The notes under the pieces: model-generated
Database searches by the model: none
Told to the model about the DNA's origin: nothing
The model's input: the letters and a program-made list of their open reading frames with translations, nothing else
Part shown: positions 8,242 through 31,508 of the stretch, piece by piece
Layout of the letters: every line of letters starts with the position of its first letter
How positions within the stretch are numbered: the first letter of the stretch is position 1
Assembly: GCF_004168255.1 (NCBI RefSeq)
Contig: NZ_SEWG01000004.1
Location: forward strand, 124,001 to 188,000
Length of the DNA stretch: 64,000 nucleotides
DNA from: Mucilaginibacter terrigena
GTDB lineage: Bacteria > Bacteroidota > Bacteroidia > Sphingobacteriales > Sphingobacteriaceae
Reading direction: 5' to 3'
Position numbers and translations under genes: made by a program

Positions 8242-9360
8242 ATGTCTATTAAGATTAAAGACCAGCCCTTTTATATCCAAAGCACCGCCGTATTGTTTGG
8301 CCTTGTGCTGCTGGTGTATGTAATGATACAACTGGCAGATATTTTGGTTCCGCTTGCCTTTGCGGCGTTTTTGGCGGTATTGCTTAACCCGCTTGTTAAC
8401 CGTTTACAGCGGTATAAAGTACCTAAAGCGCTTTCTATTGCTATCGCGATGCTGGTTATGATCATAGCCGTAGCAACCGTGTTTTATTTCCTGAGCACGC
8501 AAATAGCCCAGTTTGGCGATTCGCTGCCCATGCTGCAGAAAAAATTTGAAGCCATAACTACCGACCTGAAAAACTGGGTACAGGCCACATTTGGTGTACA
8601 GATTACCAAGCAGGAACAAATGCTTAAAGACGCGCTGAACAACAGCCAGGCTATGCTTGGCCGTACGGTTAACGGCGTATTGGGCACCCTGGCCATTATA
8701 TTTTTGCTGCCGGTGTATATTTTTCTGATGCTGTTTTACAAACCGCTTATCCTTAATTTTTTATACGAGGTTTTTTCTGAAGAGAACTCTAAGAAAGTAA
8801 GCGATGTGTTAAGCGAAACCAAAAGCGCTATTCAAAGCTATATAGTTGGCTTGCTGATAGAGATGATCATCGTAGCCGCTATGAACTCGGCTGCGCTGGT
8901 TTTGCTTGGCGTAAAATACGGCATACTTATTGGCTGCATAGGTGCTATATTAAACCTTATACCTTACCTGGGGGGCATTATAGCCATTGCTTTACCTGTG
9001 TTAATGGCAACCGTTACCAAGGATGGCTACTCCACGCAGTTGGGGGTAATTATTGCTTATATAGTAATTCAGTTTATTGATAATAATATACTGGTGCCGC
9101 GCATTGTATCATCAAAAGTGCAGATAAACGCGCTGATGTCGATAATTGTGGTGCTGCTGGGTAATGCACTATGGGGCGTATCGGGCATGTTCTTGTCCAT
9201 CCCTTTTGTGGCCGTGTTAAAGATCATATTTGACCGCATAGATGACCTTAAGCCTTGGGGAAAACTGCTTGGCGATAATGTACCTACACGCCATATGGGC
9301 GAAATGTTGCGCAGCCGCAGTAAACGAAAAGCTGTGCTGCCGAAGAAGGAGGATAGTTGA
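8242..9360 (+). CDS. AI-2E family (PerM/TqsA-like) membrane permease
   Basis: The 372-residue integral membrane protein has the AI-2E family pattern: two N-terminal helices (AVLFGLVLLVYVMIQLADIL and PLAFAAFLAVLLNPLVNRL), a third helix near residue 75, and a soluble central segment rich in charged residues (about 95-145). A C-terminal bundle of four or five helices follows, containing the family-typical GILIGCIGAILNLIPYLGG and QFIDNNILVPRIVSSKV. Members export small molecules or act as sodium/proton antiporters; the true substrate varies and cannot be read from sequence. It is transcribed alone between a terminator at 8145-8181 and another at 9387-9427. Confidence 0.9.
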   Translation: MSIKIKDQPFYIQSTAVLFGLVLLVYVMIQLADILVPLAFAAFLAVLLNPLVNRLQRYKVPKALSIAIAMLVMIIAVATVFYFLSTQIAQFGDSLPMLQKKFEAITTDLKNWVQATFGVQITKQEQMLKDALNNSQAMLGRTVNGVLGTLAIIFLLPVYIFLMLFYKPLILNFLYEVFSEENSKKVSDVLSETKSAIQSYIVGLLIEMIIVAAMNSAALVLLGVKYGILIGCIGAILNLIPYLGGIIAIALPVLMATVTKDGYSTQLGVIIAYIVIQFIDNNILVPRIVSSKVQINALMSIIVVLLGNALWGVSGMFLSIPFVAVLKIIFDRIDDLKPWGKLLGDNVPTRHMGEMLRSRSKRKAVLPKKEDS

Positions 9361-9495
9361 TGGTTCATAGTTCATTGTAAAAAAGTAAGGTCTGCAACGT
9401 TATGTTTGCAGACCTTCTTCTTTTTTTCGTTACCTCTATGGACTATCGACCATCGACTACCTGATGGCTATGAACTATGAACAATGAACCATGAA
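9360..9495. repeat. inverted degenerate repeat arms, CTATGAAC dialect
   Basis: ATGGTTCATAGTTCATTG (9360-9377) recurs in inverted, partly duplicated form at about 9468-9495 (ACTATGAACAATGAACC and neighbours). The arms bracket a proper terminator hairpin and a GACTATCGACCATCGAC stretch. They fill the space between two convergent genes. Confidence 0.65.
9387..9427 (+). terminator. hairpin terminator between convergent genes
   Basis: AAGGTCTGCAA (9387-9397) and TTGCAGACCTT (9406-9416) form a perfect 11-bp stem, followed by CTTCTTTTTTT on the plus strand. It ends the AI-2E gene and may work weakly in the other direction. Confidence 0.88.
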
Positions 9496-9499
9496 CTTA

Positions 9500-20014: not shown

Positions 20015-20030
20015 TCGGGTGCAAAGGTAA

Positions 20031-20226
20031 TAAATTAGTGATTAGTTGATTTGTGATCAGAGATTAGTTGTTGTTGGTAATTTGAGATTTGTGATTAGAG
20101 ATTAGTTAGCACAATGTAATTCCAACTAATTACGGATTAACCGGCAGCGACTCAACTAATCTCTGATTAACTAATCACTAATCTCTAATTCCCACTATTC
20201 TCTAATCACTATTCTCTAATCACTAA
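20031..20226. repeat. large inverted degenerate repeat, GATTAGTGATTAG dialect
   Basis: The left arm (20031-20110) is built from GATTAG, TGATTAG and GAGATTAG words. The right arm (20150-20226) is built from their complements (CTAATC, ACTAATC, CTCTAATC). ATCAGAGATTAGTTG at 20056-20070 is exactly inverted at 20153-20167. The element fills the divergent intergenic space and ends at the aguB promoter. Confidence 0.75.
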
Positions 20227-20233
20227 AATAAAG

Positions 20234-20241
20234 TATTTTTG
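20234..20241 (+). promoter_or_regulatory. -7 promoter element of the putrescine genes
   Basis: TATTTTTG fits TAnnTTTG and lies 18 bases before the aguB ATG at 20260. It directly follows the last repeat words of the island at 20031-20226. Confidence 0.5.
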
Positions 20242-26658: not shown

Positions 26659-26739
26659 TGTCATCCTGAACGATAGTGAAGGATCTCTCGCCGAAATGCA
26701 TCTTCGGGATCAGATGCTTCACTATCGTTCAGCATGACA
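26659..26739. repeat. 81-bp hairpin element bounded by TGTCAT/ATGACA
   Basis: TGTCATCCTGAACGATAGTG (26659-26678) is inverted near the right end as CACTATCGTTCAGCATGACA (26720-26739). The internal GCATCTTCGGGATCAGATGC forms the tip. It lies just after the LytTR gene. Confidence 0.85.
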
Positions 26740-28392: not shown

Positions 28393-28473
28393 AGCCCCCT
28401 GAAGGGAGAGCAGGGTATAAATACTAATATTATACTAAAAGTCTCCCCTAACGGGGGAGATTTAGAGGGGGCT
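28393..28473. repeat. REP-like element forming the 3' end of the flavin reductase gene
   Basis: AGCCCCCT at 28393-28400 is inverted as AGGGGGCT at 28466-28473. Inner hairpin CTCCCCTAACGGGGGAG lies at 28443-28459. The right arm includes the last codons (Ser-Pro-Leu-stop) of the gene at 28462-29355. Composition is unlike the surroundings. Confidence 0.7.
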
Positions 28474-29355
28474 TAACAGCACCATCCATGCCTCCATTAC
28501 CAAACCATCATCCAGCAATTGTTTCGCCTTTAAATGCAGTTGCAGTTCGCGGGTTTGGCTGTCGCCGATGGTGGCATCGAAGATCTCCTTCATCTCATCG
28601 CTTTGGGCGTAGGCTTCAATCTCTTCGTCCGTCGGCAGTACCTCAACGTTGCCTAATTGCCCCAGGTTATTGCCTGTAAGCACTTTAGAACTGCGGATAG
28701 CATACGGAATGGCATCTACCCCAATACCTACGGTAGTAACCGGCTTTGCCACCTTAAACAGGTTATCGGCGGTAACACGGCAGTACCAGTCGGCACCCAG
28801 GCGGGCTACCAGGTCAATTTTCTCCTGATCGATGGTGCCGTTCTCATTTAAAATATCTTCCTTGATGTGAATATATTTGATCTCGGCAATGACCAGGTTA
28901 CCTGCGCCGGGCGTATCAGCCAGGCTAATGATATCCCTTACCACACACTCCAGTTGCACCGGCGATTCGGCCACGCGGGGTGGCTTTACCAATACGGATG
29001 GTTGTTCGGTTAAGCCTGCTTTAATAAATTCGTTTACCCCTGCCGGGTACTCTACGCTTGATAAGGAAACCTGCTGCACCATATCGTAATTAACAATATT
29101 GATCACAACTTCGGGCACCTGTTTCAAGTTCTCCAGCGTATGCTTGGTGGTATTATCCCTCACCCTGCGGCTTGGCGAGAATACGCATACCGGCGGGTTA
29201 ACGCTAAAAACGTTAAAAAAACTAAACGGACTAAGGTTTACATTGCCATCCTTATCTACTGTTGATGCCAGGCAAATAGGCCTGGGCGCCACCGCATGGT
29301 TAAGGTAGGCCTGGATCTGTAGCGGGGAAAGGTCTTTTATATCGAGGGTTAGCAT
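28462..29355 (-). CDS. flavin reductase family protein (FMN-binding)
   Basis: The 297-residue protein has the split-barrel flavin reductase fold. Motifs are AVAPRPICLASTVDKDGNVN, LSPFSFFNVFSVNPPVC, RDNTTKHTLENLKQVPEVVIN and VECVVRDIISLAD, as in FMN-dependent reductases and HpaC-like proteins. The C-terminal 90 residues go beyond the usual 200-residue family. Its place next to FAH, HmgA and HppD suggests a link to aromatic catabolism, but its exact reaction is unclear. The final residues are encoded by a REP-like element. Confidence 0.85.
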   Translation of the reverse strand: MLTLDIKDLSPLQIQAYLNHAVAPRPICLASTVDKDGNVNLSPFSFFNVFSVNPPVCVFSPSRRVRDNTTKHTLENLKQVPEVVINIVNYDMVQQVSLSSVEYPAGVNEFIKAGLTEQPSVLVKPPRVAESPVQLECVVRDIISLADTPGAGNLVIAEIKYIHIKEDILNENGTIDQEKIDLVARLGADWYCRVTADNLFKVAKPVTTVGIGVDAIPYAIRSSKVLTGNNLGQLGNVEVLPTDEEIEAYAQSDEMKEIFDATIGDSQTRELQLHLKAKQLLDDGLVMEAWMVLLSPL

Positions 29356-29362
29356 GGTGAGG

Positions 29363-29834
29363 TGTTGTAAAGTTGAAATGTTGTAAGGTTGAAATGTTAT
29401 TTTTTCTTCTTGTTTGCCTCAAACTCTTTTAAATAGGCAATCAAAGTTTTCGTTTTACCGGAAAACTCCAAACTCTTACTGTATAAATCATCAAATGTCG
29501 ACTGTTCTATCTTCCCTGCTGAAATTAAAATTGTTAGTTTATTCCTAAATTCTCCAGACGAACCCTTGGCATAATTAAGGAATCTAATAAAATCAGGATT
29601 GTTATTATATTCAAATCCTTCGGCGATATTGTCCGACATTGAACATGCTGCCCGTCTAATCTGGTCTTTCATTCCCCAATCTGATTTTAAAGGCTCAGAG
29701 TCGCATAAAATATAAACCTGAACAGCAATTGCCACTGCAATCTTCCATATCTCTAAATCTTCGAACTTATCAATTTTGGGCATAGACAATCAACATTTCA
29801 ACCTTCCAACATTTCAACTTTCAAACTTTACAAC
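29363..29834. repeat. inverted degenerate repeat arms enclosing a four-helix-bundle gene
   Basis: The left arm, about 29363-29396 (TTGTAAAGTTGAAATGTTG and repeats), is inverted on the right at 29787-29834 (CAACATTTCAACC, CAACATTTCAACTTT, CTTTACAAC). The complete gene at 29397-29783 is the loop. The outer edges touch the flavin reductase start region and the FAH stop codon. Confidence 0.75.
29397..29783 (-). CDS. four-helix-bundle protein, S23/IVP family
   Basis: A 128-residue all-helical protein. The start is ATG at 29781-29783 (MPKIDKFEDLEIWKIAVA); a TTG two codons upstream lies in repeat DNA. Family hallmarks are FEDLEIWKIAVAIAVQVYIL, SDNIAEGFEYNNNPDFIRFL and YAKGSSGEFRNKLTILI. The same fold is encoded in intervening sequences of 23S rRNA genes, in free-standing copies in Bacteroidota, and in accessory proteins of diversity-generating retroelements. 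The biochemical role of the stand-alone proteins is not established. The gene is bracketed by inverted repeat arms (29363-29834), unlike its neighbours. Confidence 0.88.
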   Translation of the reverse strand: MPKIDKFEDLEIWKIAVAIAVQVYILCDSEPLKSDWGMKDQIRRAACSMSDNIAEGFEYNNNPDFIRFLNYAKGSSGEFRNKLTILISAGKIEQSTFDDLYSKSLEFSGKTKTLIAYLKEFEANKKKK

Positions 29835-30826
29835 TTCTTCAATCCTAAAATTGAAAAATCATCTTTACTTTTTTTAATAATATTGCCCAGCATACCCAGT
29901 CCGGTTATCTCCATTTCAACCAGGTCGTTTGGCTGTAACCATTGGGTTTGGTAATTAGGGTCGTTTAGCAAGCCTGTTCCGTTAAGCTCCAAAAAGCAGC
30001 CTGTACCTACCGTACCCGAGCCTATTACATCACCCGGCAGCACATCGCAGCCATACGCACAGCGTTCAATGATCTCGGCAAAGGTCCAGTCCATATCGGC
30101 CATATTGCCGCTGCTTACCTGTTTACCGTTTACCACGCACTTCATTTCCAGGTTGTAAGTAACGCCGGTGTGTCCCTCTTTTGGCGAAGTTTTATACTGT
30201 TCCAATTCATCGGGGGTAACCAGCCAGGGGCCAATTACGGTCGAAAAATCTTTTCCTTTGGCCGGGCCGAGGTTCAGCAGCATTTCTTCCATTTGAAGGG
30301 TACGGGCGCTCATGTCGTTCATGATCATGTAACCCGCAATAAAACTGTCCGCATCAGCTGCTTTTATATTACGGCCTTTTTTGTTGAGCACCACAGCTAC
30401 TTCCAGTTCAAAATCAAGTTTCTGGAAATGGTCGGGCATGCATTCAATTTCGCCGGGGCCTTGTATGGCGTTGTGGTTAGTAAAGTAAAATATGGGGTAC
30501 TGGTCAAACTCGGCTATCATATCCACCTTGCGGTTACGGCGCGCGGCGGCAACATGCTGGCGGAAAGCGTACCCGTCGCGGCACGATGTGGGGTGCGGTA
30601 CGGGTGCCATCAGCTCGTAAAACAACTCCTCTTTGGCCTGGATTTTAGCAGACCTGATGGACTCGTTCACCTTTTTAGCGCGGTCCATCAGTTCATCGCC
30701 GCCCCATAAAAATTCATTCATATTGTCGGGGATCAGCTTATCGCACGAGTGCAGATTGAAGATATGCCCGTTTATGTAGATGCCTAAATGTTCCCGGTCT
30801 TCGGTTTTGTAGGATACTAATTTCAT
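29828..30826 (-). CDS. fahA: fumarylacetoacetate hydrolase family protein
   Basis: The 332-residue protein has the FAH fold. Metal and catalytic motifs are KLDFELEVAVVLNKKGRN (acidic ligands), AGYMIMNDMSARTLQME, GPAKGKDFSTVIGPWLV and DVIGSGTVGTGCFLE. It would cleave fumarylacetoacetate to fumarate and acetoacetate, the last step of tyrosine catabolism. That role fits its place with HmgA and HppD. It is slightly shorter than the eukaryotic enzyme, as is usual in Bacteroidota. Its stop codon and last codons lie in the right repeat arm at 29787-29834. It is divergent from hmgA. Confidence 0.9.
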   Translation of the reverse strand: MKLVSYKTEDREHLGIYINGHIFNLHSCDKLIPDNMNEFLWGGDELMDRAKKVNESIRSAKIQAKEELFYELMAPVPHPTSCRDGYAFRQHVAAARRNRKVDMIAEFDQYPIFYFTNHNAIQGPGEIECMPDHFQKLDFELEVAVVLNKKGRNIKAADADSFIAGYMIMNDMSARTLQMEEMLLNLGPAKGKDFSTVIGPWLVTPDELEQYKTSPKEGHTGVTYNLEMKCVVNGKQVSSGNMADMDWTFAEIIERCAYGCDVLPGDVIGSGTVGTGCFLELNGTGLLNDPNYQTQWLQPNDLVEMEITGLGMLGNIIKKSKDDFSILGLKKL

Positions 30827-31508
30827 ATAATATAATTAGTGGTTTATTGGTTTAGTGATTTCATTTTGTGTACGAACCTCGCAAACGATCTATCGGCACA
30901 AAACGCTCTTAATTATAATTGGTTTATTGGAAATCAAAAGTAGCAAAATAGTTGATTGATGAACAGTTATCCGGATAGCTAACATTCCTTGCACCTATAT
31001 AATTAAATTTGATACAAGTGGTGGCGCCATTTTGTCAGTATTTTATTTACAAATAATTGACCATCAATAATTTATAAAAATTAGCCTGAATGTGCAAACG
31101 TGAACGTGAACATTTGCCCTCATTTATCGACCAGAAAATCGTTGAAAGCCAATATTCAACCACTCATTAAAAACTATGCTTGCATATTAAATTTAGATAG
31201 CGTAATTTTGATATTAATGATGAGCATTAAAAAACAGTTTTACTTTTCCCTCGGGCTTACTTCTATGAGTAATTCGTCTTCTTTCAGGGATGCTGTGCTC
31301 TCTAAGATCGCCTTGGCGCAATTCTAATTTTTGTTGTAAAGTTTTAATGTTGAAAGGTTGGAATGTTATTCCTGTCTGTCGGATTAAAACTATTCTGAAT
31401 TTTCAAATGTTTGATTTCTAAAACGATAAGTCAAAAGTTCAACTTTTCAACCTTAAAACGTTTCAACATTTCAACTTCGATACATTCCAACATTTAAACC
31501 AATTTAAA
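30827..31508. other. 682-bp divergent intergenic region between fahA and hmgA
   Basis: No convincing gene is present; one 75-codon reading frame (31100-31327) has no start context or family resemblance. A TACTTTTG on the minus strand (plus CAAAAGTA at 30935-30942) could be the fahA -7 element. Repeated words (GGTTTATTGG near 30849 and 30920) and a degenerate inverted repeat (31331-31500) fill much of the rest. The region probably holds the control sites for the tyrosine genes, but no operator was recognised. Confidence 0.5.
31331..31500. repeat. inverted degenerate repeat, TTGAAATGTTG dialect
   Basis: The left arm, 31331-31368, has words such as GTTGTAAAGTTTTAATGTTG. The right arm, about 31429-31500, has TTCAACCTTAAAACGTTTC and CAACATTTCAACTTC. 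These are the same words as at 29363-29834 but in an 'empty' arrangement, with a 60-base spacer instead of a gene. It ends 8 bases before the hmgA ATG. Confidence 0.65.

Follow-up and report, generated by a model that had tools for sequence, protein, structure and literature searches.

An S23 four-helix-bundle gene between inverted word arrays: a probable enzyme-less mobile element in Mucilaginibacter

The S23 locus

The window, that is, the whole stretch of 64,000 nucleotides analysed here, lies on contig C4 of a 4.28-Mb genome (G000; other G numbers denote further genomes, and L numbers denote loci). Between a gene for an FAH-family hydrolase and a flavin reductase-like gene, and outside any 23S rRNA gene, it carries an S23 gene (L006) with an array of short words on each side (Table 1). 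The protein scores 93.2 bits with the PF05635 profile (curated cut-off 33.8) and 88.8 bits with TIGR02436 (cut-off 24). Its start codon is ATG at 29783, with TTG at 29789 as the alternative (open reading frame 29397-29789). This is the only open reading frame of at least 60 amino acids between the arms, and PF05635 is its only profile match, so that no transposase is encoded.

Table 1. Features of the S23 locus and gene-less repeat islands in the window
Feature	Position	Strand	Remarks
Flavin reductase-like gene	28462..29355	-	downstream co-directional neighbour; open reading frame and profile
Downstream array	29363..29398	-	GTTGNAANG-type word of the upstream array in inverted form; runs into the S23 stop codon (29397-29399)
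S23/IVP four-helix-bundle gene	29397..29783	-	PF05635, TIGR02436; lysine-rich C-terminus
Upstream array, gene sense	29790..29834	-	8-nt words GTTGNAANG; best-paired part 29792-29826
FAH-family hydrolase	29828..30826	-	upstream co-directional neighbour; open reading frame and profile
Island	9353..9497		in a convergent gap; its heptad is that of S23 gene L002 (cosine 0.70); 95-nt loop
Island	20028..20235		in a divergent gap; ATTAGTGATTAG as its word, with a cosine of 0.50 to L246 (G088) and of 0.22 to L014 (G000)
Island	31332..31500		shares its octad with the window S23 gene (cosine to the arms of that gene 0.58); 65-nt loop; 31332-31468 in the scan, lengthened on the right by eye

The two arrays pair as inverted arms of 35 nt each (29364-29398 and 29792-29826), which are 91% complementary and have 393 nt between them. 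Among the window-wide inverted repeats lying no more than 900 nt apart, they rank first in the list. In the arm test used throughout, the complementarity between the upstream flank (250 nt) and the downstream flank (300 nt) of the profile match is compared with that of 200 dinucleotide shuffles; the S23 arms reach p<=0.005. The same level is reached by four of the 53 open reading frames of the window, S23 with a score of 27 and the other three with 14-16, and these three put the false-positive rate of the test at some percent.

The upstream array extends slightly past the 35-nt best pair, and its last unit on that side (29828-29834) contains the FAH stop codon; the downstream arm terminates 7-8 nt ahead of the start of the flavin reductase gene. 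The gap between the two genes is taken up by the S23 gene and its arms. Both the inverted arms around a four-helix gene and their abutting of the neighbours, as described in the first-pass annotation, are therefore confirmed. The FAH protein ends in LKKL* here, and in KK* in 24 of 28 copies from relatives without the element.

Arms at other S23 genes

It had been advised that other four-helix genes be checked for flanking arms, and the 13 others in the window genome were all found to be armed. This gives 14 of 14 S23 genes found in G000 (15 match rows, two of which were merged by the analyst; all p<=0.005), to which are added 12/12 further genes of G088, a second, single-contig genome of the genus, and 30/30 other genus loci, likewise at p<=0.005. 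In a phylum sample, arms were detected at 57 of 70 loci at p<=0.05 and at 45 of 70 at p<=0.005. The sets of G000 and G088 comprise all S23 matches found there; the genus, phylum and GTDB samples consist of the best-scoring matches and are non-random. The control toxin family Gp49 (PF05973) gave 2/30 at p<=0.05 and 0/30 at p<=0.005, and the flanks of 28 FAH genes (two of 30 loci, at contig ends, being left out) score 9-18 in a gapped version of the arm test.

The best 80 S23 loci across GTDB species were treated in the same way; 78 were testable, the other two lying near contig ends. Their group names were taken from record titles, and many of the records are metagenome-assembled genomes (MAGs). 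Outside Bacteroidota, 40 of 44 loci have arms at p<=0.05 (35 at p<=0.005), and within Bacteroidota, 28 of 34 (20 at p<=0.005). The four non-Bacteroidota loci without arms come from MAGs of an archaeon, Opitutia, Acidobacteria and Nitrospira, and two of the 40 with arms (L307, L327) show a different best period. S23 loci on cyanobacterial plasmids have arms in 5/5 cases. An Rfam scan around 40 of 46 non-Bacteroidota loci found no rRNA; one tRNA and one 6S RNA were found nearby. The family itself is widespread, with a PF05635 match in 99 of 100 genus genomes and 193 of 247 phylum genomes searched.

Some individual loci have features of their own. Two S23 genes of the window genome, L011 (C4:123545) and L005 (C5:380104), contain internal stops while their arms are still present. 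On plasmids of Anabaena 90 (L371) and Pseudanabaena galeata (L372), the S23 gene is located between cas6 and cas4; in Anabaena, a type I-D cas1 is annotated next, and the 3' array of the S23 gene falls inside the annotated Cas4 frame near its start.

Anatomy of the arrays and the word

The element is laid out as a 5' array, the S23 gene and a 3' array, each array typically with 4-5 tandem words of 7 or 8 nt. Both arrays give the same word when read inward, and this word has an AG step. When the arms are compared with themselves at lags from 3 to 15, identity is highest at 7, 8 and 14, a pattern that the control lacks. Words of period 7 (69 loci) have A at position 1 in 82% and G at position 2 in 96%; for period 8 (17 loci), the values are 73% and 92%, three of the 89 loci being left out of the table for want of a clear period. 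The number of units per array peaks at 4-5 on both sides (medians 4.6 and 4.4, 101 loci), and at 2 in shuffled flanks. As judged by eye, array length varies, with about 10 units in L009 and more in L371 and L372. Ahead of the S23 gene in L372, about 15 nearly perfect 7-nt units are packed into 130 nt, against the usual 4-5. L011 appears to use 9-nt words.

The first-pass annotation had called the words locus-specific, a description that had to be given up. From comparison of the sequences, the word goes with the S23 subfamily, at unrelated loci and in gene-less islands too. Among 89 loci (3916 pairs), the cosine between words stays at a background of about 0.05 when the proteins are less than 50% identical. 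For pairs without a shared neighbour gene, it rises to 0.33 at 60-70% identity and 0.52 at 70-80%. The 88 pairs with at least 60% identity in different neighbourhoods have a mean cosine of 0.373, and permutation of the labels gave a mean of 0.103 and a maximum of 0.200 in 2000 trials. Only 215 of the 3916 locus pairs have any neighbour gene in common, which indicates that the genomic settings differ widely.

Individual cases agree with this. Four subfamily-word pairs, matched by reading proteins and arms, are present in both G000 and G088 (L007/L250, L013/L252, L014/L254, L005/L249). The subfamily of the window gene is found between four gene pairs in four genomes, with the octad word every time and with long forward open reading frames alongside (its neighbours were sought in forward frames only). 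The exceptions are L072, and L007 as compared with L009 and L012, where words differ at about 70% protein identity.

The S23 gene is under purifying selection. In eight of nine protein pairs, dN is 0.05-0.16 with dS above 1.3 or not computable (dN 0.05 and dS 4.4 for L006/L024); the ninth, a very close pair, has dN 0.008 and dS 0.063. The protein and its word thus outlast neutral change.

Gene-less islands

A de novo scan for inverted repeats covered 464 kb of sequence from G000 and 400 kb from G088. The best period was 7, 8 and 9 in 6, 13 and 2 cases and 10, 12 and 13 once each; two of the cases are S23 loci. Of the 22 gene-less islands, 17 match the word of one of the 27 S23 genes of G000 and G088 at a cosine of at least 0.45. 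None matches the 29 words of other genus members, and one matches the 45 phylum words. The mean best cosine is 0.571 for the islands and 0.193 for shuffled islands. The remaining five are probably not of the S23 kind. That such repeats exist without the gene, as noted at the outset, is accordingly upheld; two islands in the window have loops of 65 and 95 nt. By eye, the latter loop (island 9353..9497) holds a terminator-like hairpin. The genes at 20 of the 22 islands could be resolved: 13 pairs are co-directional, 4 divergent and 3 convergent.

The islands of G000 have a cosine of 0.46 to the words of G000 and of 0.29 to those of the other genome; the islands of G088 match both sets alike (0.41 and 0.38). 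For several G088 islands, the S23 gene with the matching word turned up in G000 and not in G088. The matches were made with the pooled words of two genomes, so an island and its S23 gene need not share a genome.

In three further genomes (G096, G047, G035), the match between island and S23 word, a REPIN-like doublet, was not confirmed. G096 has no island in 200 kb despite 10 S23 matches. G047 has one island in 200 kb and one S23 match (L070), whose word is unlike the island by eye. G035, the sole genome without a PF05635 match among the 100 of the genus, has one credible island in 400 kb (L385, 8832-8920), chosen by eye from four hits with a period of 7-9 nt. The proposal that island number is a function of S23 number is not supported by these genomes.

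Turnover of sites

Occupation of orthologous sites turns over. It had been suggested that relatives be examined for absence of the gene at the window locus, and most of them do lack it: S23 is present at two of 30 FAH loci (G000 and G056, with proteins 91% identical), for which 190 nt behind FAH were read. The other loci have different palindromes or short spacers, including those of relatives with 97-92% identical FAH proteins.

The gap between argC and argD could be resolved in 29 species, one of 30 being left out as the end of argC was not located; the S23-less gaps were sorted by eye on sequences and scores. Two S23 subfamilies, each with its own words, occupy this gap, an L001-type gene in four species, G000 included, and an L004-like gene (52-77% to L004) in four others. 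In G044, the gap has a gene-less island with an L004-like word, and so a gene-less form does exist at a site where other species hold the S23 form, as had been surmised. The loop of this island, the sole one compared, is by eye unlike a remnant of S23. Further states of the gap are weak arrays (3), a single array (2) and other palindromes (7), and eight gaps have neither an array nor arms scoring at least 13. In the argC gene of G000 (positions 331-1446 of L001, on contig C1), ArgC carries PPSGGWGA twice, which resembles an in-frame repeat element within the gene.

The other palindromes (GTCATCCTGA..., GTCATTGCGAGG... and similar) are found at 26659-26739 in the window, at L017, L018, L019, L022 and L027, and at L267 and L281. 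In relatives, they use gaps of the S23 type, one kind of repeat replacing another between species. The GTAGGTTGGGTTG and GTCATTGCGAGG palindromes were set aside as candidates for S23-type arrays; they occupy the same gaps but contain no 7-8-nt arrays by eye.

Plasmids provide the clearest view of empty sites. Plasmids 1 and 2 of Calothrix brevissima have an integrase, the arm-S23-arm unit and a hypothetical gene. In plasmids of Tolypothrix PCC 7601, Aulosira and Nostoc carneum, which are about 90% identical, the same genes are separated by a 3-nt gap with no array. The arms thus belong to the element and arrive together with the gene. At the cas6-cas4 site, which holds S23 in Anabaena 90, Dolichospermum UHCC 0315A, 98.8% identical around the site, has a different palindrome, and Nostoc UHCC 0302 has a 23-nt gap. 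For the S23 site of Nostoc edaphicum, no second record with its flanks was found.

The first-pass annotation had proposed a mobile element, with the other islands as its empty forms. The first part stands, as the gene and arms behave as a mobile unit. The second, with islands as targets of insertion, is not supported, since the empty plasmid sites have a 3-nt gap and no arms. No target-site duplication was seen in two comparisons of occupied and empty sites, where the ends of the element are not sharply defined. In both, the upstream gene of the occupied form ends differently from that of the other form, in its final codons as well as its stop. The occupied form often substitutes for the entire spacer instead of splitting it.

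Orientation and interpretation

Of the 75 S23 loci that could be resolved in Bacteroidota, 73 are in sense with both neighbours, two are opposite to both and none is mixed (one of 76 loci was unresolved, and some of the 75 are orthologous). In G000 and G088 alone, 25 of 26 genes are in sense with both. Outside Bacteroidota, where the calls are crude longest-ORF calls, as they are in Bacteroidota, the figure is 20 of 31; one Nostoc plasmid copy is opposed to both neighbours. The orientation in Bacteroidota is read here as reliance on read-through expression.

It is considered probable, if by no means settled, that the window gene and its arms are a copy of an enzyme-less mobile element of the kind known as intervening sequences (IVSs) of 23S rRNA, located between the genes of an operon, and that its S23 protein reads the element's own word. 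The S23p protein of Xanthomonas is described as a toroidal homopentamer (PMC4990558), and five chains are present in each of the solved structures of relatives, 2gsc and 2rld. Such a pentamer may bind the array with about one protomer per word. The TRAP protein offers an analogy for one protomer per repeat. By gripping both ends, the pentamer could render the element movable by an activity of the host. Islands that share the word but have no gene would be relatives of the non-autonomous kind, and the sense orientation would follow if S23 were expressed only through read-through. What speaks against a mobile element is that it has no catalytic domain and that the two comparisons showed no target-site duplication. 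Also on this side are the frequent replacement of the entire spacer, island numbers out of step with those of S23, the G088 islands whose words belong to S23 genes of G000, the pairs with different words at about 70% protein identity, and the looser orientation outside Bacteroidota, with the opposed Nostoc plasmid copy.

A far wider proposal can be made only tentatively and is given somewhat less than an even chance. S23 elements would form a bacteria-wide class of enzyme-less mobile DNA, whose pentamer reads AG plus 5-6 subfamily letters, with about one word per protomer and one word per subfamily. The islands would be non-autonomous, the rRNA IVSs copies that landed in 23S genes, Avd a recruited member, and the orphan heptamers of several phyla traces.

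Instead of a mobile element, the S23 gene could be part of a resident regulatory module, in which the protein binds RNA or DNA specifically and controls its own operon via the arrays; the islands would then be its regulon, and the module would be kept as useful and spread only by ordinary gene transfer. Purifying selection and cognate words would be expected of such a module, as would the sense position among co-directional neighbours, with arrays adjoining start and stop codons. The retention of the L001-type element at argC-argD in four species suits a useful resident gene as well, and counts against a mobile element. Nevertheless, different subfamilies alternate at that very site, the copies L005 and L011 have internal stops, 7 of the 20 resolved islands lie in convergent or divergent gaps, and the settings vary widely, with 215 of 3916 locus pairs sharing any neighbour. 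The module is, on this balance, unlikely.

Less likely again is an RNA-processing element as in 23S rRNA, whose arms would pair in the mRNA to form a stem for RNase III, cleavage of which would free the S23 message from the operon transcript. The terminal repeats of the Coxiella IVS, which has heptamers before its reading frame, are reported to be cut by RNase III (PMC4990558), and the sense orientation (73/75) would fit. Differences between arms, however, show no excess of G-U pairs, with 99 wobble-compatible against 126 incompatible transitions (one of 89 loci, with identical arms, left out). Permuting the units of one arm lowers complementarity only from 22.3 to 19.3, random flanks giving about 10 (85 of 89 loci used, four left out). 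Complementarity thus mostly survives, and the common word weighs more than an exact stem. In the register test on the same 85 loci, in-register identity (0.834) exceeds that of the better one-period shift (0.731) in 83, which implies some mirrored order, though the register was picked as the best one. Altogether, the RNA-stem reading gains little from the wobble and permutation tests.

That the arrays are ordinary intergenic repeats, grown by slippage and template switching, with S23 genes landing in existing islands, is very improbable: gene-less islands do exist, one of them in a genome without an S23 match (G035), array length is variable and other palindromes occupy the same gaps, but the plasmid empty sites without any arms largely contradict it, the word tracks the protein subfamily and arms are missing at control genes.

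On the mobile-element reading, the findings point to a kind of mobile DNA that has gone largely unrecognised and that can be tested. The function of S23 proteins is given as not known in the accessible text of PMC4990558; the inverted word arrays that match the subfamily provide the family with a predicted and directly testable ligand.

Comparison with known systems

In the open-access literature, as represented by titles and the starts of abstracts, no earlier account of arms, words or islands at non-rRNA S23 genes was recognised. In the accessible portion of PMC5524665, four helix bundle proteins appear just in a table. Heptamers in a single IVS, and terminal repeats in IVSs generally, are already known (PMC4990558).

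REPINs and their RAYT proteins are similar in that short, extragenic, gene-less inverted doublets form protein-associated groups; RAYT, however, is a tyrosine transposase (PMC3116915), whereas no catalytic domain is known in S23, whose repeat is an array of 7-8-nt words on either side of its own gene. A Y1 transposase as obligatory partner was rejected, as Y1_Tnp found no match in G002, a genome with S23 matches, and the window gene is itself a PF05635 protein.

Avd, the accessory protein of diversity-generating retroelements, is described as a structural relative of PF05635 (4DWL against 2GSC; PMC10053308). The S23 element, by comparison, does not seem to need a reverse transcriptase, and this enzyme too was dismissed as an obligatory partner: G011, G013 and G025 have S23 genes and no RVT_1 match. 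In G000, there is one such match, on contig C5, whose S23 gene lies about 67 kb away, and none on C4, the contig of the window.

The orphan TAACTGA repeats of Beggiatoaceae, cyanobacteria and Bacteroidetes resemble the arrays in being tandem, 7 nt long, mostly intergenic, in 2-6 copies and near start codons; in the text available, they are nearly all direct, with one inverted set (PMC4679880). The complement, TCAGTTA, shares the AG step with S23 words. Adjacent TCAGTTA copies were found at 0 of 374 loci examined, and the connection is a lead only. Heptanucleotide hairpins are known from cyanobacterial tRNA-Leu introns.

The closest relatives are the IVSs of 23S rRNA with an S23p reading frame, for which mobility has been proposed since the 1990s (PMC4990558). 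Both have an S23 gene between terminal inverted repeats, are similar in size (428 nt in the IVS and about 470 nt here), are sporadically distributed and lie in sense within the host transcript; the Coxiella IVS also has tandem heptamers ahead of its reading frame (PMC4990558). They differ in that the S23 elements here lie between protein genes, have words tied to subfamilies and are accompanied by gene-less islands; here, moreover, S23 is under purifying selection, whereas the Coxiella frame is described as decaying (PMC4990558). We infer that S23 elements and rRNA IVSs form one kind. The shared anatomy connects the IVSs with the much larger number of S23 genes that lie outside rRNA, and gives the previously ownerless heptad and octad repeat islands a candidate owner.
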